Shown piece after piece: positions 3,644 through 41,919 of a stretch of DNA of 41,919 nucleotides. Numbering within the stretch: position 1 is the stretch's first letter; each line of letters opens with the position of its first letter. The stretch is taken from positions 1 to 41,919 of the IMG/VR virus record IMGVR_UViG_3300047558_000279; one strand, 5' to 3'. The translations under genes and the position numbers were made by a program. The DNA is from a virus. The notes below the pieces were generated by a model. That model saw nothing but the letters and a program-made list of their open reading frames with translations. It was not told the DNA's origin and did no database searches.

Positions 3644-3821
3644 TCCTGATGATGAGGAGCGTTTGCGTTTAGCAATGATTCGCATTGGTGAGGCTATGAA
3701 GAGGTCTCGTATTATGAGCGAGGCTTTAACGGATTCGGCAAGTAAGTTGCTTGTTGAGCAGGTAGAGAAATTTTTGGAGGAACATAATGGAATACAGGAT
3801 GACGGGCGACCAGGGGCTTGA
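3636..3821 (+). CDS. Small helical hypothetical protein
   Basis: A 61-residue helical protein beginning MASPDDEERLRLAMIRIGEA. The ATG at 3636 overlaps the end of the preceding frame and is preferred to an in-frame start at 3603, which would lie deep inside that gene. The last 35 bases overlap the WhiB gene in another frame. No motif is recognised; a coiled-coil tendency is visible around residues 15-50. Confidence 0.6.
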   Translation: MASPDDEERLRLAMIRIGEAMKRSRIMSEALTDSASKLLVEQVEKFLEEHNGIQDDGRPGA

Positions 3822-4164
3822 TGCTGCCCTGTTAGCAGATTTTATTTTTGAGAACCACGCAGGCATTGTGCCTTGCCAGCAAGCACCAGATTTGTATTTC
3901 CCTGAAAAGTCTGGTACGCCTAAGGCTGAGGGTTATGATGATTTGACTCAGGCTCAGTTGGCTAAAAAGAATTGTGTACAGTCTTGTCCTGTGATGATGG
4001 AGTGTCGTATGTATGCTTTGCGTCATAATGAGACGGATGGTATTTGGGGTGGGATGACTGCTAATGAGCGTCGTTTGTGGCATAAGGCTAATGGTGGTTC
4101 TCGTAATAGTTCTCGTAAGGGTATTCCTAATAAAAGGAATTATCGTACGCGGGATGATGTATAG
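3787..4164 (+). CDS. whiB: WhiB-family iron-sulfur transcriptional regulator
   Basis: A 125-residue protein with all WhiB hallmarks: four cysteines at residues 30, 63, 67 and 73 (C-x32-C-x3-C-x5-C), the GIWGG turn at 86-90, then a basic C-terminal tail (RNSSRKGIPNKRNYRTR) that would contact DNA. WhiB proteins hold a 4Fe-4S cluster and bind the primary sigma factor domain 4 to alter host promoter choice. Phage copies are known to interfere with host WhiB functions such as division or superinfection control. The start follows TTTTTGGAGGA. Its presence is the clearest evidence for an actinobacterial host. Confidence 0.93.
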   Translation: MEYRMTGDQGLDAALLADFIFENHAGIVPCQQAPDLYFPEKSGTPKAEGYDDLTQAQLAKKNCVQSCPVMMECRMYALRHNETDGIWGGMTANERRLWHKANGGSRNSSRKGIPNKRNYRTRDDV

Positions 4165-4998: not shown

Positions 4999-5619
4999 AT
5001 GGTCGACATTAACTCGGCTCTACCAGACCCGAATGATTTGCTATCGGGTAAGTCTGTTCCAAGTATTTCGTTCAAGGACGCTAAGGTTGGCGATTCGTTT
5101 ACTGGAACTATCACGGACCTTGAGACTGCTCAGGTTCGCAACTACGAAACTGGCGACCCAGAGTTCTGGGAAGATGGTAACCCGAAGTTGCAGATTGTTG
5201 TAACTCTCGCCACCGAATACGGTGACGGTGTTGAGGATGATGGTGAGCGTAAGGTTTACCTGTTCGGTCAGAAGTTGCAGGCTGCTAAGGCTGCAATGAA
5301 GGAAGCAAATGTTACCAAACTTGAAAAGGGTTTCGGTTTCACTATCACCTTCGCTGGCGAGAAGCCATCATCGAACAAGAAGTACAACAACGTAAAGTTG
5401 TACGGTATCACTATTGTTCCTTCGAAGTCGAACCCTGCTGTTGACGCTATTTTGGCGATTGGTGGCAAGGAAGTCGTTGAGGGTGATAAACTATCAGCAG
5501 AGCAGGTTGCTAAGGTGAACAAGTTGGCTGAGGCTGGCTTTGACTCCAAGGAAATCGCAGAGACTATGGGCGTTAATCGTTACGCTGTCGAAGCCGTCCT
5601 TGATGGTTCACTTCTCTAA
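4999..5619 (+). CDS. Putative single-stranded DNA-binding protein
   Basis: A 206-residue protein. Residues about 25-145 contain GDSFTGTITDLETAQVRNYE, then a GNPKLQIVVTLAT strand, RKVYLFGQ and a further beta region. This pattern resembles actinophage proteins annotated as ssDNA-binding with an OB-like fold. The last 40 residues (LSAEQVAKVNKLAEAGFDSK then EIAETMGVNRYAVEAVLDG) look like a small helix-turn-helix, an unusual addition. Codons here shift to C-ending forms (aac, ttc), suggesting high expression. It has its own AT-rich leader (AAAGGATAAAAAAATT) and is followed by a long perfect hairpin. The assignment is by pattern and position next to the exonuclease and primase. Confidence 0.6.
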   Translation: MVDINSALPDPNDLLSGKSVPSISFKDAKVGDSFTGTITDLETAQVRNYETGDPEFWEDGNPKLQIVVTLATEYGDGVEDDGERKVYLFGQKLQAAKAAMKEANVTKLEKGFGFTITFAGEKPSSNKKYNNVKLYGITIVPSKSNPAVDAILAIGGKEVVEGDKLSAEQVAKVNKLAEAGFDSKEIAETMGVNRYAVEAVLDGSLL

Positions 5620-5632
5620 CCTCTAAAAGTTT

Positions 5633-5679
5633 GCGGTCACAGCGAGGTTTTTCCTCCATTTCTCCCTCGCTGTGACCGC
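5633..5679 (+). terminator. 15-bp perfect inverted repeat before the primase gene
   Basis: GCGGTCACAGCGAGG at 5633-5647 pairs perfectly with 5665-5679 around a 17-base pyrimidine-rich loop, followed by TTTCC. It separates the ssDNA-binding-like gene from the primase gene. A weak intrinsic terminator, an attenuator or a protein-binding palindrome all fit. The short T run makes termination uncertain. Confidence 0.6.
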
Positions 5680-5705
5680 TTTCCAATCTCTGAAAGGATT
5701 ACATT

Positions 5706-8216
5706 ATGGCTCTGACCAAGCCCTTCCAAGAACTTCTAGAACGCTTAGGGCGTTCACCTGAGGATGCATTAGCAGTCTGCTATCAGTCCGCATCTCAGGG
5801 TTTCCGTGTAAAGACAACTAAGGTTCAGTTCGCCGACACTGTTGTTGAAGCGTTGACTGAGATGGGGTCGAATGTTTGGTATGAAATCAACCCGTCGACT
5901 GCCTCTGGGCGCGCTAAGGCTGAAGACATTACACGCCTGTCCGCCGTTTGGATTGACATTGACTATAAAGATACAGGCATCCAGAGTGAAGCGAATGCTC
6001 ACGAACTGGTTGACCTGATTGCAAACCTTATCGGTGTGCAACCAACCGCTGTCGTCCACTCTGGTCACGGTTTACAGCCTTATTGGGCTATTGACCCTGA
6101 GGAAGAATACACGCAAGAACAAGCATCAGGTGTACTATCCCGTTGGGGTGCGTTTGTGCGTTGGGTGGCTGCCTCTCAGGGCGGTCAACTAGATTCTGTG
6201 TTTGACCTGCCACGCATTTTCCGTGCGCCTGGGGGAACAAACTTTAAAGACCTAGCCAACCCTATCCCTGTGCGTGTAGACTTCGCTGACGCTTGGCGAC
6301 CACTCAGCCTAGACGAACTAGATGACCTACTTATTACGCACGGTTTCGTATCGGTTCAGACTTCGCCAGACTTCGAACTTGTATCTGGCGCGTCCGACTG
6401 GAATTACGCAGAATTCGATTGCCAATGGGTAGGTAACCTATTCAATTCGATTCAGCCAACTAACGGCGTACCTAAGTCGCGCCACGGCTGGCTGCTACAG
6501 CAACTCGTAAAGATTAACGCTGCGCACCGTAACGGGTGTATCACAGAAGATACGGCTAAGCGTCTTGTTGTTACTTTGGATGCACAGTTCCGCGAGTTTT
6601 TAAAGTCTGCGCCTTCCCGTGAAATCAATCAGGGTGAGGTTCAGTCTGCTAACCGTTGGGCTGTTGCTCGTGTAGAAACTTTTGATGCGAAGAAACTTAG
6701 TGATGAACTTCGTGGACACGAACACAAAAATTTTATTGAGGGTGTTGAAGAAATTGTAGAGCCTGCCTCGCCCTATAAGGATGAATACTCTGACGAGGAA
6801 CTTCACAGCATCTACTACAACTCTTACATGAACTATGGCACTACTGATGCCGCTAACGCTACCCGCATGATTCATTTCATGCGTGGCAAATACCGTTATG
6901 TAACTGATGTTGGCTGGTATTACTGGGATGGCACACGCTATGTTCAGGACAAAGAGAAATCGATTATGCAGGAAATGATTGACTCTGTTCAGTTCTTCCA
7001 CGGCACAGACCTTGGACCTGCAATTAATAAGTGGATACTTCAATCACAAAACAAAGATAGGATTCTAAATGCAATCGCAATTGCTGGGACCGATAGCGAA
7101 GTCCTTGTTCGCGCAATCGAGTTGGATGCGGAGGCAAATAATCTCTGCACTCCTGAGGGGATTGTCAATCTCCGAACAGGTGAAATACGCCCAGCACTTA
7201 AGGGTGTTGACCTTAATACTAGGCAGACCTCTATCAGCCCTAGAACTATGGAAACTCCGTTATGGTCTAACTTCCTCAAAGAAGTCATTGAGGATGACGA
7301 ACGCATCGCGTACGTCCAAGAACTCTTTGGTGCTGCGTTATTCGGCGATTCCCGATTCCATGTACTACCAGTATTTGTTGGAACGGGCGCGAACGGTAAG
7401 TCAACTATTATCGACGTCATTGCGGGGATTCTAAATGACTATGCCGCAACCATGCCAGAAAACTTTCTTCTTGACACTACAGGGAACGCACACCCCACTG
7501 ACATTGCAAGACTTAGAGGAGTTCGTCTTGCCGTGGCTTCGGAGACACGCCCTGACGGTAAATTTAATGAGTCCAGAGTCAAGATGCTCACAGGAGGCGA
7601 CACTCTCTCTGCAAGATTTATGGGACAAAACTTCTTCGACTTCAAACCAACACACACACTGTTCATGGCAGTAAACCACCTGCCAGAAGTAAAGTCTGGT
7701 GGAGATGGTTTCTGGCGTCGTCTACGAAAGATTGACTTCCGTAAAACGATTCCAGCGGACAAGCGTAAAGAAAACCTCGCCCAACTTCTCGTCGAAGAAG
7801 AAGGCGCAGGTATCCTACAGTGGATGATTGATGGTGCTGTGCGTGTAACCAACCAAGGGTTCAGCGAACCTGAATCGGTCAAGATGGCTACACAGTCCTA
7901 CCGTCACGAAGAAGACCACATCGCCAAGTTCATTGATGAGCGCACTATCCTCGCCGACACTGCATCTGTCACTAAGACTGCCCTGTTCAATGCTTATCGT
8001 GAATGGTGTGCTGAGAATGGTGAGAAGCCTGTCACGCAAAACAACCTGACCCGCGAGGTGAAGGCTCGTCTAAACGTGGCTGAGAGCGAATCTGTAGGCT
8101 TCAAAATGTTTGTTGGTGTAGACCTACTAAAGATTGGTTCAAGCAACAACTCATCGTCCGTGAAGGACATTCTGGGCGACTATCTGGAGGACAAGAGTGA
8201 CTATTGGGATAGATAA
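5706..8216 (+). CDS. Primase-helicase fusion (AEP-like primase plus D5-type SF3 helicase)
   Basis: An 836-residue replication protein. The N-terminal domain has VWIDIDYKD with Asp84 and Asp86 as the metal-binding pair, and a downstream SGHGLQPYW at 119-127, the signature of archaeo-eukaryotic-type primases. The C-terminal half is a superfamily 3 helicase: Walker A GTGANGKST at 559-567, a Walker B-like LRGVRLAVASE region and sensor motif MAVNHLP at about 655-661, with a D5-N-like linker before it. Such proteins unwind the origin and prime synthesis. No phage DNA polymerase is visible, so it probably loads the host polymerase. The ribosome site GAAAGGA precedes the ATG. Its end overlaps the next gene by 20 bases. 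Confidence 0.92.
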   Translation: MALTKPFQELLERLGRSPEDALAVCYQSASQGFRVKTTKVQFADTVVEALTEMGSNVWYEINPSTASGRAKAEDITRLSAVWIDIDYKDTGIQSEANAHELVDLIANLIGVQPTAVVHSGHGLQPYWAIDPEEEYTQEQASGVLSRWGAFVRWVAASQGGQLDSVFDLPRIFRAPGGTNFKDLANPIPVRVDFADAWRPLSLDELDDLLITHGFVSVQTSPDFELVSGASDWNYAEFDCQWVGNLFNSIQPTNGVPKSRHGWLLQQLVKINAAHRNGCITEDTAKRLVVTLDAQFREFLKSAPSREINQGEVQSANRWAVARVETFDAKKLSDELRGHEHKNFIEGVEEIVEPASPYKDEYSDEELHSIYYNSYMNYGTTDAANATRMIHFMRGKYRYVTDVGWYYWDGTRYVQDKEKSIMQEMIDSVQFFHGTDLGPAINKWILQSQNKDRILNAIAIAGTDSEVLVRAIELDAEANNLCTPEGIVNLRTGEIRPALKGVDLNTRQTSISPRTMETPLWSNFLKEVIEDDERIAYVQELFGAALFGDSRFHVLPVFVGTGANGKSTIIDVIAGILNDYAATMPENFLLDTTGNAHPTDIARLRGVRLAVASETRPDGKFNESRVKMLTGGDTLSARFMGQNFFDFKPTHTLFMAVNHLPEVKSGGDGFWRRLRKIDFRKTIPADKRKENLAQLLVEEEGAGILQWMIDGAVRVTNQGFSEPESVKMATQSYRHEEDHIAKFIDERTILADTASVTKTALFNAYREWCAENGEKPVTQNNLTREVKARLNVAESESVGFKMFVGVDLLKIGSSNNSSSVKDILGDYLEDKSDYWDR

Positions 8217-10707: not shown

Positions 10708-12967
<2,260 letters not shown>

Positions 12968-18826: not shown

Positions 18827-18860
18827 AAAAAATAGTCCCCTTAATTGGGGATTATTTTTT
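18827..18860 (+). terminator. Intrinsic terminator after the scaffold gene
   Basis: A 14-bp stem with one G-T pair: AAAAAATAGTCCCC at 18827-18840, loop TTAATT, and right arm 18847-18860, ending in a run of seven T. It is a textbook intrinsic terminator, symmetrical enough to act on both strands. Confidence 0.92.
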
Positions 18861-18865
18861 TACCC

Positions 18866-18892
18866 TGTGGATAACTCTGTGGATAACTTTGT
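18866..18892 (+). repeat. Tandem DnaA-box-like 12-mers, copy 1
   Basis: Two TGTGGATAA sites (18866-18874 and 18878-18886) lie in direct repeat at a 12-base spacing (unit TGTGGATAACTY). Each is a perfect complement of the DnaA box TTATCCACA. A further near match, TTATCCATG, is at 18907-18915. The whole 27 bases recur exactly at 40101-40127. The site lies between the scaffold terminator and the probable capsid promoter. Confidence 0.8.
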
Positions 18893-18896
18893 GTAG

Positions 18897-18902
18897 TATG
18901 AT
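18897..18902 (+). promoter_or_regulatory. Probable -10 element of the capsid promoter
   Basis: TATGAT (one mismatch to TATAAT) lies just after the DnaA-box-like repeats, about 90 bases before the capsid ATG, giving a long 5' leader with CCCTAAGAGGG as a small hairpin and TAGGAG as the ribosome site. No good -35 is seen, so activation by a protein bound to the repeats is possible. Confidence 0.45.
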
Positions 18903-33070: not shown

Positions 33071-33675
33071 TACTCAGCCTTCGCTACAGGTTTAGCCTTA
33101 GGCTTCACAGCAGGCTTCACAACAGGCTTAGGAGCCTCAACAACAGGCTCAGCCACAGGTTCTGCTACAGGCTCTACAACAGCCTTAGGAGCCTTAGGGT
33201 CAGAAGCATAAGCAGGACGACCAACACCCATAATTACAGACATGTTACGCCACTGCTCCTGAACAACACCACCATTACTGTGCGACTTATCCGAAGTATT
33301 ACCCTCAATACACTTCAACTGACCCTTATGCGCGCCATGACCAACCTCAGTAACAATACCAACATGGTCCTGCGAACCATCATGGTCCCAATCAAAAAAC
33401 GCTAGGTCACCAACCTTAGCCTCAGCAGTCGGATGCCAAGCCTTCTTAGCCTTAAAAAATTCGATACCCTTACCGCAAGAGTTAAAACCCTTCTGCGACT
33501 GCGCACCCTTAACTAGTTCCGCGTGACCAGCAGCAGCCAAAGCCCACGAAACAAAACAAGCACACCAAGGAGCATGGTTAGCACCATACCACTTACCAAA
33601 AATGTTGTCCTTACCCTTACCCTCAACATAACCAAGGTGCTTACGAGCGTGAGCGATAACATCAACAGCAGACAT
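33070..33675 (-). CDS. CHAP-domain endolysin
   Basis: A 201-residue lysin. The CHAP amidase/peptidase residues are Cys38 (PWCACF), His104 (DHVGIV) and Glu124 (CIEGNTS). The G-D-L-A-F-F-D segment at 89-95 is typical. Residues about 155-201 are a linker-like Pro/Val/Ala/Lys repeat (VEPVAEPVAEPVVE; KPVVKPAVKPKAKPVAK) with no recognisable wall-binding fold; its basic end may bind the envelope. It cuts peptidoglycan peptide bonds at lysis. It is flanked on both sides by membrane-protein genes. Confidence 0.9.
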   Translation of the reverse strand: MSAVDVIAHARKHLGYVEGKGKDNIFGKWYGANHAPWCACFVSWALAAAGHAELVKGAQSQKGFNSCGKGIEFFKAKKAWHPTAEAKVGDLAFFDWDHDGSQDHVGIVTEVGHGAHKGQLKCIEGNTSDKSHSNGGVVQEQWRNMSVIMGVGRPAYASDPKAPKAVVEPVAEPVAEPVVEAPKPVVKPAVKPKAKPVAKAE

Positions 33676-34729: not shown

Positions 34730-35452
34730 TTAATCTAGAACGATGGTAGTCTCTGCATCCAATTCTATACTATTCTGCACAGGCTCCGCTACAACACCCA
34801 AATGAGACTGCCCCGAAGCCAACGCAATAAGTTCACGCGCAATATTACGCTTCACCACAGGGTCCAAAACATGCCGCAAAACAATATCCTGAACCTGCAA
34901 CAACAAACTCGGCACATCCAACTGCTGACGAGCATTAGGGTCAAACCTACCCGTCAACTGATTCACAAAAGTAATCGCCTTCATATCCCCCTGCTGAACC
35001 AACTGCCCCAAAGCAGCATCAGCCATAGGAATAAACTTCTGCAAATTCTCCTCAGACTTAACCTTCATCGCATGAGCAAACTCCTTCTGATTCAACCAAC
35101 CAGCAAGTTCACCCACACCAATCTTCATCCGCTTAGCCAACACCTGCGGAGTCAAAAGATTAAGCGGATTCAAATAAGCCTGTAAGAAAGTTTCCTGCCT
35201 AAGAGTAAGATTAGGATTCTTCGTCGTCTTAATACCACGGTCACTGAGACTACGCTGAAACTTTGAAGAACCCCAAACGACCTCCACATCCTCACGCGAA
35301 AGTGAGGCATCCTGGTCCAAGATAACCTGCAACTCCAAGAACAAACCCTGCCTGTCCGCAGCAATGGCAGCCGACAATACACGCTCAAAAAGTTCCTGCT
35401 CCTTGGTACGCTTACCACTATCCAACCTACTCTCAAACTTAGAACTATCCAC
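34730..35452 (-). CDS. Putative small terminase-like HTH protein
   Basis: A 240-residue protein starting at GTG 35452, chosen because GGAGGG lies about 8 bases upstream and it overlaps the regulator gene by 8 bases. The central part reads LTLRQETFLQAYLNPLNLLT followed by PQVLAKRMKIGVGELAGWLN, a helix-turn-helix pattern as in terminase small subunits. A helical region with QLVQQGDMKAITFVNQLTGR follows, resembling their oligomerisation part. No other small terminase is evident. The distance from the large subunit makes this tentative. Confidence 0.5.
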   Translation of the reverse strand: MDSSKFESRLDSGKRTKEQELFERVLSAAIAADRQGLFLELQVILDQDASLSREDVEVVWGSSKFQRSLSDRGIKTTKNPNLTLRQETFLQAYLNPLNLLTPQVLAKRMKIGVGELAGWLNQKEFAHAMKVKSEENLQKFIPMADAALGQLVQQGDMKAITFVNQLTGRFDPNARQQLDVPSLLLQVQDIVLRHVLDPVVKRNIARELIALASGQSHLGVVAEPVQNSIELDAETTIVLD

Positions 35453-35939
35453 GAGGCAATCCCTCCAAAGCCAACAAATACTCAGGGCTGACACCCAAAT
35501 TCAACAAACGCCCCGACAAACCATCAGGCAAACGCGCCAACTTACCAGACTCATAATCACGCACAATAGAAGGCGACACCCGCAACAAAGACGCAAACGC
35601 CGTCACAGACCCAGCAAAATCCTTCCTCCACAAAGCAAACGTGTTGTAATACTGACCCAAAACATAAGGCGGAACCTCCAACAAACGCTCCGCAACACCC
35701 CTCAAAGGCGCAGACGGCTTCACCAACCACGCCTCAATCTCCCCCACCAACACCCCAGCAGACACACCCAAATGCTGCTCAGCAGCACCCAAAATCCTAT
35801 CCGACGCACGCTTAGTACGCCCATCCTCCAACGCCGTCAACGCCGAACGCTGCACACCAGCCAAAGCAGCAAACTTAGACTGAGACAGCCCAGCAGCAAC
35901 ACGAGCCAAACGAACAGGGTGGTCAGAAATACGAGCCAT
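35445..35939 (-). CDS. XRE-family regulator with two HTH-like regions
   Basis: A 164-residue protein. Residues about 10-45 form a Cro/CI-type HTH (RVAAGLSQSKFAALAGVQRS then ALTALEDGR). A second HTH-like region lies at about 108-135 (VTAFASLLRVSPSIVRDYES). The gene heads the minus-strand operon and faces the plus-strand early cluster, so it probably controls one or both directions. A TAGTAT about 7 bases before the ATG and the lack of a ribosome site suggest leaderless translation. Confidence 0.8.
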   Translation of the reverse strand: MARISDHPVRLARVAAGLSQSKFAALAGVQRSALTALEDGRTKRASDRILGAAEQHLGVSAGVLVGEIEAWLVKPSAPLRGVAERLLEVPPYVLGQYYNTFALWRKDFAGSVTAFASLLRVSPSIVRDYESGKLARLPDGLSGRLLNLGVSPEYLLALEGLPRG

Positions 35940-36104
35940 ACCAGCAATACTAACACAACCAATAGACAGGCATAGCCAATTTAAAATTTCCCGCTGCGAT
36001 GCTAGTACAAGGGACGGCTGGAAACTTGGCTCACAACATCGAGGGGGTAGATTTAGTTCTGTCGCCGAAGCAACCGCCGAGGGACATCAAAATAGGAGTA
36101 TCAA
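35940..36104. promoter_or_regulatory. Divergent promoter region with a diverged copy of the intergenic element
   Basis: This 165-base gap separates the minus-strand regulator operon from plus-strand early genes. It holds an AT-rich core (TTTAAAATTT at 35980-35989), then CCGCTGCG at 35991 and AAGGGACGGCTGGAA at 36009-36023. The latter closely resembles the AAGGGGACGGGTGGAA of the three downstream elements. AGGAG precedes ATG 36105. Strand composition flips here, so it is also an origin candidate. Confidence 0.6.
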
Positions 36105-36518
36105 ATGTTGGAACAGAACCACGAGGGCGAAGTCCTCACCACCGCCGAGGCACTAGCCGAGGCACTAGAAGCAAGCAAGAACCGCGAGGCTTTTCTGGGC
36201 GCGGCAGTTCAGAAGTGGGCTGACGAGTGGCAGAAGGCGAAGGCTCTGTTGGAGGCTTCGATTGAGGAGGACGGCGTAGACACCGACAACCTCGGACACA
36301 GCCTCGGTCTGCTGGTTGAGTTGTTTGAGATTGACTTCTACGAGGAGGTTGACGTCAAGATGACTATCACCTACTCGGGAACCATCTCGGTCAAGAAGGG
36401 CGCGAACCTTTGGGACATGACCACGCCTGACCGCTTCCCTTACGCTGTATCCGTTGCGATTGACGGCGTAGAGTGCGAAGGCACTTTGTCCGAAGACGAC
36501 ATCGAGTTCGACTACTAG
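36105..36518 (+). CDS. Hypothetical early protein
   Basis: A 137-residue acidic protein. An N-terminal helical half (EALAEALEASKNREAFLGAA) is followed by a beta-rich half (VDVKMTITYSGTISVKKGAN, then YAVSVAIDGVECEG) and an acidic end (SEDDIEFDY). The leader GGAGTATCAA is almost the same as at 550. C-ending codons suggest strong expression. It is first gene of a unit whose second gene follows a tetraloop hairpin. No family is recognised. Confidence 0.7.
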   Translation: MLEQNHEGEVLTTAEALAEALEASKNREAFLGAAVQKWADEWQKAKALLEASIEEDGVDTDNLGHSLGLLVELFEIDFYEEVDVKMTITYSGTISVKKGANLWDMTTPDRFPYAVSVAIDGVECEGTLSEDDIEFDY

Positions 36519-36778: not shown

Positions 36779-36807
36779 AAACCCCTCGCAGAAATGCGGG
36801 GGGTTTT
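36779..36807 (+). terminator. Intrinsic terminator of intergenic module 1
   Basis: A 12-bp stem with one G-T pair, AAACCCCTCGCA at 36779-36790 with 36795-36806, closed by a GAAA tetraloop and ending in TTTT. It is preceded by ACTTACTCCTATAAGGCA, which is repeated before the terminator of module 2. Confidence 0.9.
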
Positions 36808-36813
36808 CTGTTT

Positions 36814-36856
36814 CCGCGAGCGCAAAGGCTCCCTAAGGGGACGGGTGGAATGTGTG
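36814..36856 (+). repeat. Intergenic element, copy 1
   Basis: CCGCGAGCGC at 36814-36823, a 13-base spacer, then GGGGACGGGTGGAATGTGTG at 36837-36856, running into a C-poor GT-rich tract to about 36893. It lies 7 bases after a terminator and about 75 bases before the next gene. It matches the copies at 37557-37600 and 38085-38129. Probably a promoter-proximal or 5'-leader element. Confidence 0.85.
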
Positions 36857-36932
36857 TTGTGTGGTGTGGGGTGTGTAGTGTTGTGTTTGTCGGGCTAATC
36901 GGTTCGGCGTTATCTAAAAATGGAGTAAAGAA

Positions 36933-37265
36933 ATGTGTGAAGTAGAGACCCGCGAGAACTCGTGGAGTGTGTGTGAGTGCGAGCCTGTTGTGGCTGAGGT
37001 TACTCACGAGGAAACGGCAGTTGAGTTGGTGAATGAGCGCACTAGGCGTTCGGCACTAGAAACCGAGTTGGCTCGTGTTCAGCGTGCTGGTCAGTTTTAC
37101 GCAACTCACCGCGATGAGTTAGAGGCGCGGTTGGCTATGGTTCGGGTTCTTGTGGAGAGCCTGATTGACGGGGAGGACCTCTGCGAGCCGTCTGAACACG
37201 GAGAGGTCGCGGAACTTTGCGACTTACTTGGTATTGAGTTTGATGATGAAATGGAGGAGAACTAG
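36933..37265 (+). CDS. Hypothetical early protein with a coiled coil
   Basis: A 110-residue acidic protein. The N-terminus has two close cysteines (SVCEC), then a long helix at about 30-85 (ELVNERTRRSALETELARVQ), a likely coiled coil, and an acidic end. The leader AATGGAGTAAAGAA puts GGAG 7 bases before the ATG and is shared with other genes of this region. It is the first gene of module 2. No family is recognised. Confidence 0.7.
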   Translation: MCEVETRENSWSVCECEPVVAEVTHEETAVELVNERTRRSALETELARVQRAGQFYATHRDELEARLAMVRVLVESLIDGEDLCEPSEHGEVAELCDLLGIEFDDEMEEN

Positions 37266-37266
37266 C

Positions 37267-37298
37267 AGGATAGGTGAGGGGAGGGCGCAAGCCCTCCC
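37267..37298 (+). promoter_or_regulatory. AGGATAGG element with GCAA-tetraloop hairpin, copy 2
   Basis: AGGATAGGTGAGG at 37267-37279 leads into an 8-bp hairpin, GGGAGGGC / GCCCTCCC at 37279-37286 and 37291-37298, again closed by GCAA. Compared with copy 1 two base pairs differ on both strands (C-G to G-C and G-C to A-T), so pairing is conserved while the sequence changes. Confidence 0.75.
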
Positions 37299-37320
37299 TG
37301 AACCTTGCTAGGCAAATGCT

Positions 37321-37491
37321 ATGAGCAAAAAGGATTACATTGAGTTCGCTAAGGTTCTCAACAAGGCTTTTCAGAAACTACACGACAACGGAACTTTCTC
37401 GGTTATGGTTTGGGAGTTGGTCGCTATTCTGAAGGCTGATAACCCGAACTTTGATTCGGATAAGTTCCTTAAGGCTGTTACTGGCGAGTAA
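37321..37491 (+). CDS. Small hypothetical protein, 56 aa
   Basis: ATG 37321 opens a 56-codon frame, MSKKDYIEFAKVLNKAFQKL onward, ending AVTGE. The MSKKDYIEFAK start resembles a family of very short phage proteins seen in many actinophages, as I recall it, with no known function. It lies 22 bases after the tetraloop hairpin, in the same place as the membrane protein of module 1, and is followed by the module terminator. The frame fills the gap cleanly. Confidence 0.7.
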   Translation: MSKKDYIEFAKVLNKAFQKLHDNGTFSVMVWELVAILKADNPNFDSDKFLKAVTGE

Positions 37492-37512
37492 GACTTACTC
37501 CATAAGGCACTG

Positions 37513-37549
37513 ACCCCCGCAAGCCCTCCCCCTCGGCTTGCGGGGGTTT
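37513..37549 (+). terminator. Hairpin terminator of intergenic module 2
   Basis: A 13-bp perfect stem, ACCCCCGCAAGCC at 37513-37525 with 37535-37547, followed by TTTA. It is preceded by ACTTACTCCATAAGGCA, the same lead-in as in module 1, although the hairpins themselves differ. Confidence 0.85.
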
Positions 37550-37556
37550 AGTGTAT

Positions 37557-37600
37557 CCGCGAGCGCAAAGGGCTTCTTTAGGGGACGGGTGGAATGTGTG
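37557..37600 (+). repeat. Intergenic element, copy 2
   Basis: CCGCGAGCGC at 37557-37566, a 14-base spacer, then GGGGACGGGTGGAATGTGTG at 37581-37600 and another GT-rich tract (GTGTGTGGTGTGTG). Identical in both core motifs to copies 1 and 3. It lies 8 bases after a terminator. Confidence 0.85.
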
Positions 37601-37668
37601 GTGTGTGGTGTGTGAGGGGGTATGTTTGTTGTGTAGTCAAGTTGGCTATCTTATGAATGGAGTTAGAA

Positions 37669-37842
37669 GTGTTTGATACCGAGGTTTATAGCCACTCATC
37701 CGTGCCGTGCGCGTGTTGTGGCGATGGCGCTGGTTTGGTTATTAGCGAGGATGTTGCGCGCCGTCTAGATGTGCGTGATTTGGATTTTTATGTTCAGGGT
37801 TATTGTTGGGATTGTCTACCGATTTTTAGGAAGGTGAACTAA
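37669..37842 (+). CDS. Zinc-ribbon microprotein, 57 aa
   Basis: A 57-residue protein with CACC at about 14-17 and CWDC at about 47-50, the two halves of a zinc ribbon. GTG 37669 is chosen because GGAG lies 6 bases upstream in the conserved leader AATGGAGTTAGAA; the ATG at 37657 lies inside that leader. The stop overlaps the next start (TAATG). Function unknown; a nucleic-acid or protein-binding role is likely for a bare zinc ribbon. Confidence 0.65.
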   Translation: MFDTEVYSHSSVPCACCGDGAGLVISEDVARRLDVRDLDFYVQGYCWDCLPIFRKVN

Positions 37843-38024
37843 TGTTTGTTGATTTTGATTGCGATTTTTGCGGTGGCGCAACCTCGTTTATTCGCGTCTA
37901 TGACGAATGGGGGGTGTCCTCGTGGCTTGAAGGCGTGAATGGTTGCGGGTCTGATTATCTTGCTATTTGGTGCGGTGTTTGTGGTCCTAAGCACCGCGAG
38001 CGCGAGGCGGTGATAGCCAAATAA
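37842..38024 (+). CDS. Zinc-ribbon microprotein, 60 aa
   Basis: A 60-residue protein with CDFC at 7-10 and CGVC at about 44-47, again a two-knuckle zinc ribbon, separated by SFIRVYDEWGVSSWLEGVNG. It is translationally coupled to the preceding zinc-ribbon gene, so the two products may work as a pair. The module 3 terminator follows within 16 bases. Confidence 0.7.
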   Translation: MFVDFDCDFCGGATSFIRVYDEWGVSSWLEGVNGCGSDYLAIWCGVCGPKHREREAVIAK

Positions 38025-38039
38025 GCCTTGTAAGCCCCG

Positions 38040-38082
38040 CTAAGCCCCTTACAGCCTCCCCTGCTGTAAGGGGCTTAGTTTT
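38040..38082 (+). terminator. Intrinsic terminator of intergenic module 3
   Basis: A 16-bp perfect stem, CTAAGCCCCTTACAGC at 38040-38055 with 38063-38078, around a 7-base loop, followed by TTTTA. It is the longest hairpin of the three modules. Confidence 0.92.
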
Positions 38083-38084
38083 AC

Positions 38085-38129
38085 CCGCGAGCGCTCCACA
38101 GCGCCCTCAGGGGACGGGTGGAATGTGTG
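38085..38129 (+). repeat. Intergenic element, copy 3
   Basis: CCGCGAGCGC at 38085-38094, a 15-base spacer, then GGGGACGGGTGGAATGTGTG at 38110-38129. Here the spacer forms a small hairpin (GCGCT-CCAC-AGCGC). It lies 3 bases after the terminator. The region downstream to 38284 holds no long gene; it is A-rich with a possible 24-codon frame and TTGACT near 38277. Confidence 0.85.
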
Positions 38130-38162
38130 CTGTGCTTGCGATACACTTAGCAAGTTAGTAAT

Positions 38163-38237
38163 GTGAGTAACAATCCCGCTAGACAAGCAGGGAGAGCAAG
38201 AAAAACAAAAAAAATCAGTAAAAGAAAGCCTGTTTAG
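38163..38237 (+). CDS. Possible basic micropeptide, 24 aa
   Basis: GTG 38163 opens a 24-codon frame (SNNPARQAGRARKTKKISKR and two to three more residues) with ten basic residues. No ribosome site is visible, so translation would have to be leaderless or it may be noncoding A-rich leader. It fills part of a 260-base gap after the third intergenic element. Weakly supported. Confidence 0.25.
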   Translation: MSNNPARQAGRARKTKKISKRKPV

Positions 38238-38347
38238 TTAGCCTTTTTTCGTTATTGTTTTGTTATCGAAATGTTCTTGACTAGGTGAGTAGGCAGAGTA
38301 AGTTAGCAGTTAGGCAAGTTGCCTTTATTGAGAATGGAGTATTAGAA

Positions 38348-40012: not shown

Positions 40013-40131
40013 TGCGTTGTTTGTCGTGCGGATGGAATTTGCGTAATGTGCGTGAGTTGTCGTGGTGTGTTGGTTGTGGTTTGGAGGAGTTTTTGGAGGT
40101 TGTGGATAACTCTGTGGATAACTTTGTTTAG
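40012..40131 (+). CDS. Zinc-ribbon microprotein whose 3' end contains DnaA-box-like repeats
   Basis: A 39-residue protein with CLSC at 3-6 and CVGC at 19-22. Its last 10 codons (EVVDNSVDNFV) are written by the tandem TGTGGATAA repeats that also occur, outside any gene, before the capsid gene. The protein end is thus dictated by a DNA site. It is the last gene before the AT-rich region. Confidence 0.6.
   Translation: MRCLSCGWNLRNVRELSWCVGCGLEEFLEVVDNSVDNFV
40101..40127 (+). repeat. Tandem DnaA-box-like 12-mers, copy 2
   Basis: Two TGTGGATAA sites (40101-40109 and 40113-40121) in direct repeat with 12-base spacing, identical over 27 bases to 18866-18892. They border the AT-rich repeat region at 40132-40367, an arrangement expected of a replication origin. 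Confidence 0.8.
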
Positions 40132-40367
40132 TCGGTTTCCTATATTGGAGGTTACTCATTCATAAGTTACTAATGAGTAGATGATGAATGAGTAGGTAGG
40201 TTCTATATATAGCGACCTCTGATTTGAGTGTTTATAGATGAAATAAAGGGGAAAACGGGGTATGTTTTTCTCTTGGTAAAGAAAATTAGGTAAAATTCTA
40301 CTAAATCTGTATGATGAGTAGGTGAGTAATACTAAGTTACTATCCTAGTGAGATACGCTGGGTTTGT
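40132..40367. other. AT-rich noncoding repeat region, candidate origin or control region
   Basis: This 236-base stretch has no gene. It contains an 11-bp inverted repeat (TACTCATTCAT at 40153-40163 with 40184-40194), three ATGAGTAG copies (40173, 40188, 40314), two TAAGTTACTA copies (40163, 40333), a TATATATA segment near 40205 and long A/T runs. Tandem DnaA-box-like sites lie at its left edge and an HTH gene at its right edge. An origin of replication or a repressor-controlled early promoter both fit. Confidence 0.6.
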
Positions 40368-41749: not shown

Positions 41750-41919
41750 ATGGAAATGAAGTTGGATGTTTTGCCTGAACTGTTGGCTGTGTGTGAGCGT
41801 GTTGAGGTTGAGGCTAAGAGTGTTGATGGTGAGAGGATTTCGTGGGCGTTTTTCCCTCAGACTGCTCAGGGTGCGGGTGTTGGTCGTCCTGCTCAGGGTG
41901 CGGTTGGGTTTACGGAGTT
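41750..41919 (+). CDS. Hypothetical early protein, 5' part of the gene completed at 3-275
   Basis: The frame opens at ATG 41750 with the conserved leader ATGGAGAATGTA upstream (ATG 41726 with AAAGGA is the alternative) and runs off the end of the window. Because the last 127 bases repeat the first 127, the rest of the gene is found at 3-275. It encodes EMKLDVLPELLAVCERVEVE and onward. Function unknown. Confidence 0.7.
   Translation, partial: MEMKLDVLPELLAVCERVEVEAKSVDGERISWAFFPQTAQGAGVGRPAQGAVGFTE
41793..41919. repeat. Terminal direct repeat, right copy
   Basis: Exact copy of bases 1-127; see the left copy. It marks the point at which the circular assembly was opened. Confidence 0.9.

Follow-up and report, generated by a model that had tools for sequence, protein, structure and literature searches.

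Repeated intergenic motifs of unknown function have been reported in several actinophage groups (PMC7302621). In cluster A phages such as L5 and TipsytheTRex, asymmetric 13-bp operators and stoperators, more than 20 of them distributed genome-wide, are paired with a two-domain repressor (PMC9283540). The SAS and ESAS of cluster K and of cluster EF Microbacterium phages are short, conserved, asymmetric repeats (PMC3203893, PMC7302621); SAS occupy the ribosome-binding site, 3-7 bp ahead of the start codon, and a role in translation has been proposed for them (PMC3203893). Microbacterium phages of clusters EC and EI carry asymmetric 18-bp repeats and 30-bp repeats, respectively, in small intergenic regions, again with function unknown (PMC7302621).

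The window analyzed here is the whole 41,919-nt stretch of IMG/VR virus record IMGVR_UViG_3300047558_000279, from a phage whose capsid and terminase genes are closest to those of Arthrobacter (Jasminevirus), Cellulosimicrobium DS1 and Microbacterium Shocker phages. The window has a 127-bp direct terminal repeat (1-127 and 41793-41919), which makes the record either circular or terminally redundant. A 19-nt perfectly complementary inverted repeat (GGGTGTTGGTCGTCCTGCT; 83-101 and 41875-41893 versus 33211-33229) pairs the terminal repeat with a gene of the endolysin region. A 43-nt repeat, 86% identical between 18855-18897 and 40090-40132, contains tandem pairs of the DnaA-box-like TGTGGATAA and possibly represents replication origin signals, and collagen-like repeats with a 9-nt period lie in a tail-fibre gene (12181-12756).

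The 20-mer GGGGACGGGTGGAATGTGTG occurs exactly three times in the window, in identical form, always on the plus strand and nowhere else, against 0.01 copies expected from shuffles. Each copy follows a terminator-like hairpin. The sequence-only reading that had called it invariant in three copies, each just past a hairpin terminator, was accurate on both points. Each copy is preceded by CCGCGAGCGC and a 13-15-nt spacer. That reading had also described a fourth copy as diverged; the copy is indeed present, as AGGGACGGCTGGAA, in the region where the leftward HTH regulator gene diverges from the rightward ORFs, the first of which is at 36105, but far from being diverged it belongs to the most conserved class, found in the divergent region of every readable relative. 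The features of the locus, and one gene discussed later, are as follows.

3787-4164: gene for a WhiB-family transcription factor
35445-35939, minus strand: gene for P0001, a tandem-HTH regulator of 164 aa and the proposed core binder
35963-35968, plus strand: TAGACA block, 32 nt before GCTA
36001-36004, plus strand: GCTA block, possibly beginning a second -10 (GCTAGTAC)
36010-36023, plus strand: promoter-type core copy in the divergent region, conserved in the divergent regions of relatives
36033-36040, plus strand: ACAACATC block, 28 nt past GCTA, near-invariant in the family
36048-36053, plus strand: -10-like TAGATT, 24 nt after the TGGAA of the promoter-type copy, at a position enriched family-wide
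36779-36806, plus strand: terminator hairpin before copy 1
36837-36856, plus strand: copy 1, post-terminator (core plus TGTGTG), exact match
36876-36881, plus strand: -10-like TAGTGT, 25 nt after the TGGAA of copy 1
36933-37265, plus strand: opening ORF of the copy 1 cassette, with a 110-aa product of no assigned function
37514-37546, plus strand: terminator hairpin before copy 2
37581-37600, plus strand: copy 2, post-terminator, exact match
37621-37626, plus strand: -10-like TATGTT, 26 nt after the TGGAA of copy 2
38044-38074, plus strand: terminator hairpin before copy 3
38110-38129, plus strand: copy 3, post-terminator, exact match

The core is carried by about 50 related metagenomic phages, IMG/VR contigs gathered by regulator and motif searches, and its presence at equivalent intergenic positions in them supports the earlier suggestion that it is under selection. 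One copy always lies between the divergent tandem-HTH regulator gene and the first early gene in readable relatives, and most relatives have 1-4 further copies within ~2.3 kb, on the early strand and mostly just past terminators. About 70 hits were obtained with a degenerate core pattern, against 2 for a reversed control, and the pattern matched 27 of 40 relatives' records; clade-variant cores account for most of the other 13. The core of a distant clade is GGGAATGAATGGAA and that of a third group AGCAACGAMTGGAA, each present both downstream and at the divergent promoter. Outside the family, the pattern had 6 matches in unrelated taxa, estimated to be no more than chance. A BLAST search of isolate phages with the region returned a single 49-bp match, likewise taken as chance. 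CCGCGAGCGC, previously counted as part of the element, proved genome-specific: it is absent in relatives, including L015, whose regulator is 90% identical, and was dropped from the transferable element. Judged by these sequence comparisons, the transferable unit, invariant across the family, is the asymmetric 13-14-bp core GGGGACGRNTGGAA. Many but not all post-terminator copies have the TGTGYG tail, and flanks and cargo genes vary among copies and genomes, with the cores at cassette boundaries.

In every readable relative the divergent region also contains an ordered array, in which TAGACA is followed after 30-32 nt by GCTA and after a further 27-28 nt by ACAACATS. The core floats inside the GCTA-ACAACATS gap, and the block spacing is kept across distant relatives. 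GCTAnnnAT is a possible second -10, and near relatives have a TTGAAA-like -35 17 bp upstream of it. The noncoding stretch after the last copy in the window (38130-38285) has a TAGACA at 38180 and AT-rich blocks (TTTTTCGTTAT..GTTATC) that also occur in L001 at 5514-5750.

A terminator lies at most 90 nt upstream of 30 of 39 copies (control, 11.5%). Downstream, a -10-like TAnnnT is found 23-25 nt past TGGAA in 19 of 52 non-redundant post-terminator copies, 14 of them at exactly 24 nt, and in 10 of 29 promoter-type copies, against other-window averages of 1.1 and 0.3, respectively. With a looser, graded -10 score, 32 of the 52 post-terminator copies reach the threshold at 22-26 nt and about 40% fall below it; in L032 and L033, of the distant clade, a perfect TATAAT lies 26 nt past the core. 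Within the window, the promoter-type copy and copies 1 and 2 have a TAnnnT as expected of a sigma-70-type promoter; copy 3 has none 23-26 nt downstream, with TACACT at 18 nt and CAAGTT at 27 nt. The TTGACA -35 that such a promoter would have at 16-18 bp was not found, the best match upstream of the -10s being 2.28/6 versus 2.21 for shuffled sequence, and its absence suggests activator dependence. The fixed -10 spacing, lack of a -35, upstream terminators and null RNA folding of the core (below) argue for a DNA element of transcription initiation. Together with the co-variation of the cores, they support the phage-specific promoter or activator site that had been offered as one explanation of the repeat.

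By profile comparison, the N-terminal HTH of P0001 resembles 434 repressor and the C-terminal HTH an MBF-type domain, and its AlphaFold2 model (pLDDT 89.6) has helices for two HTH domains. Relatives of P0001 are present in all 21 records tested, and its gene heads a leftward operon containing a CHAP endolysin. In the 40 genomes having both promoter-type and other core copies, the 6 bases before NTGGAA in the promoter copy agree with those in the other copies of the same genome at 5.72 of 6 positions, versus 4.42 with genomes shuffled and 5.13 when shuffled within clades (permutation p<5e-5 each). Core class changes at least 11 times on the regulator tree, with GGACGA having arisen several times. 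Such co-variation of all core copies in a genome would be expected if each phage had a single trans-acting factor. Within the core, TGGAA hardly varies; the 5' half does, as do residues 127-128 of the second recognition helix (HTH2). RD or RE at these residues goes with GACGG in 20/24 and other pairs go with other cores in 20/22 (Fisher 3e-7, a value that ignores shared descent). As the core changed in L043 and in L016, L018 and L030 with residues 127-128 unchanged, and as the common core occurs in L050 and L064 alongside other residues there, the link between regulator and core is imperfect and confounded by descent. Mutual information over all regulator columns was dominated by phylogeny, and only the recognition-helix contrast was kept.

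From the above we infer that the repeat is probably a DNA promoter module, with P0001 as the operator binder controlling initiation of each early cassette. The asymmetric core would be the operator for this tandem-HTH regulator, with one P0001 polypeptide per core, presumably bound as a monomer, and one HTH per half-site. The conserved first HTH would contact the invariant TGGAA, and the second HTH, which varies, the likewise variable GACGG half. At ~24 nt upstream of the -10 hexamer, roughly -50 to -37, of a promoter without a -35, the core would be positioned where a class II activator touches the sigma subunit of the polymerase. Each early cassette would have its own start, insulated by the preceding terminator, and all cassettes would be under joint control from the primary copy in the divergent region between the regulator and early genes. 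The lack of a good -10 at the usual spacing of copy 3 counts against this mechanism, as do the post-terminator copies with sub-threshold -10 scores and the imperfect link between regulator and core. Activation of the early genes is slightly preferred to their repression; given that P0001 heads the endolysin operon, a late repressor of early promoters would also fit. More broadly, though here our confidence is lower, these phages could form a widespread actinophage family, with no integrase detected, whose cassettes stand on terminator-insulated, -35-less promoters activated by a tandem-HTH polypeptide, the operator specificity of 2-5 sites re-evolving concertedly via one recognition helix.

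The alternative that survives best, although we consider it unlikely, is that the cores are repressor operators or stoperators, on which the tandem-HTH protein would shut early initiation and block elongation with no activation. The sites are asymmetric, 13 bp long and in a single orientation relative to transcription, one being at the early promoter and the others intergenic, and the regulator has two DNA-binding domains, like that of L5 and TipsytheTRex (PMC9283540); its position at the head of the leftward endolysin operon would suit late shut-off. However, sites right after terminators would be redundant for blocking elongation, the fixed 24-nt link to a -10 without a -35 points to control of initiation, and each genome has few sites rather than more than 20. 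Furthermore, neither the window nor 20 relatives yielded a tyrosine or serine integrase, so there is no sign of lysogeny, and a role of the repeat in it is unlikely.

Less probable again is that a host protein, either an alternative sigma factor or a regulator, binds the core instead of P0001 and that the core variants reflect different hosts. Differing hosts would also yield concerted variation, and sub-threshold matches to sigma region 4 exist in 8 of 21 relatives, with WhiB in some. However, the core always adjoins the P0001 gene in readable relatives, and the TGGAA-to-(-10) spacing of 24 misfits ECF sigma factors, which have a shorter -35/-10 spacing. A phage sigma factor is unsupported as the core factor, as sigma region 2 was found in 0 of 21 records. 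A phage WhiB does not qualify as the universal trans-factor: among 20 relatives tested it was found in 13 but not in the other 7, several of which have 3-4 core copies, and this also weighs against the host-protein explanation.

A function of the core at the RNA level, in antitermination or as a leader, is very unlikely. The orientation of the core is strand-specific, mini-hairpins occur upstream of the core in 19 of 51 cases (6.2 expected), and leaders further downstream of post-terminator copies fold somewhat better than shuffles (mean z -0.89). The RNA from the core to the -10, however, folds like its shuffles (mean MFE z +0.13), while the terminators used as positive control reach z -3.3; the copies also follow terminators rather than precede them, and antitermination gives no expectation of a -10 at fixed spacing. 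As a start downstream of the -10 would exclude the core from the mRNA, the structured 5' leader previously suggested is unsupported at the core. The mini-hairpin, which is not universal, was set aside as part of the element given the null folding signal, and an Rfam covariance-model search of the window found a single tRNA, with no match at the repeat. The leader at 36050-36100 and its equivalents in relatives often have a small hairpin after TTGTC, the stem sequence varying. Finally, a recombination linker or mobile boundary spreading with early gene cassettes and having no regulatory role would fit cores that mark cassette boundaries amid varying flanks and cargo, but is hardly credible given that the fixed -10 spacing, the conservation at the divergent promoter across distant phages and the concerted change point to one recognizing factor.

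The proposed pairing of P0001 with the core appears to extend to cultured phages. A tblastn search of P0001 against isolate phages gave no match and a protein scan of genome contigs no relatives; isolate relatives surfaced only via fold search, after the capsid and terminase kinship. Foldseek found full-length structural relatives of P0001 in GurgleFerb and Shocker, and ADAT_3 of phage Adat aligned as a P0001 homologue (hhalign prob 96.5, E 8e-10). In the Arthrobacter phages Adat, Jasmine, Casserole and Brad, the divergent region contains a core, TACTGGCTGGAA, followed by a CAACATG block, and a second core, TATACYGGCTGGAA, comes after a hairpin; in Shocker and DS1 the divergent region has TGGAA and then ACAACATS. 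Jasminevirus therefore resembles the window in having a divergent homologous regulator (ADAT_3) adjoining the core and a second core after a hairpin, but the 5' half of the core differs and the 24-nt -10 rule is not evident in the Arthrobacter phages. No description of the Jasminevirus core and regulator was found in the cited actinophage literature. Since the homologues are in cultured Arthrobacter phages, their function is directly testable in culture.

Among the described systems, the EC and EI repeats are similar in being asymmetric and in small intergenic regions of actinophages, but their sequence (TAGaCTCTaGGTgTaAgC) is unrelated, they lie 22-30 bp from start codons and they have no linked regulator. 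Like SAS and ESAS, the copies are short, asymmetric, conserved repeats before early or non-structural genes; unlike SAS, their ends lie tens to more than 100 bp upstream of the next ORF, in keeping with the initial view that the likeness is in placement only. In class II activation, as by lambda CII or by cI at PRM, the regulator site coincides with the promoter's -35 region, the -35 itself being poor. The proposed P0001 site would be analogous, although it is asymmetric and its putative binder is a single tandem-HTH chain. The cluster A operators and stoperators are similar in their length of ~13 bp, asymmetry, single orientation and distribution, with a site at the early promoter and the rest in intergenic gaps, and in a regulator with two DNA-binding domains (one HTH in the cluster A repressor, two in P0001). 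They differ in core sequence and number, with few sites here, confined to the early region, that come after terminators and a set distance ahead of a -10, in phages with no integrase found. The second domain of P0001 is a standard XRE-type HTH, unlike that of the cluster A repressor, which was compared by description and was not among the fold matches listed. By analogy, the core and P0001 may work like cluster A operators and stoperators. If the activator network proposed above is correct, it would be the two-domain repressor logic of cluster A turned to activation. The analysis already allows an actinophage intergenic repeat to be linked with a specific regulator gene, a promoter geometry and natural operator and regulator variants.
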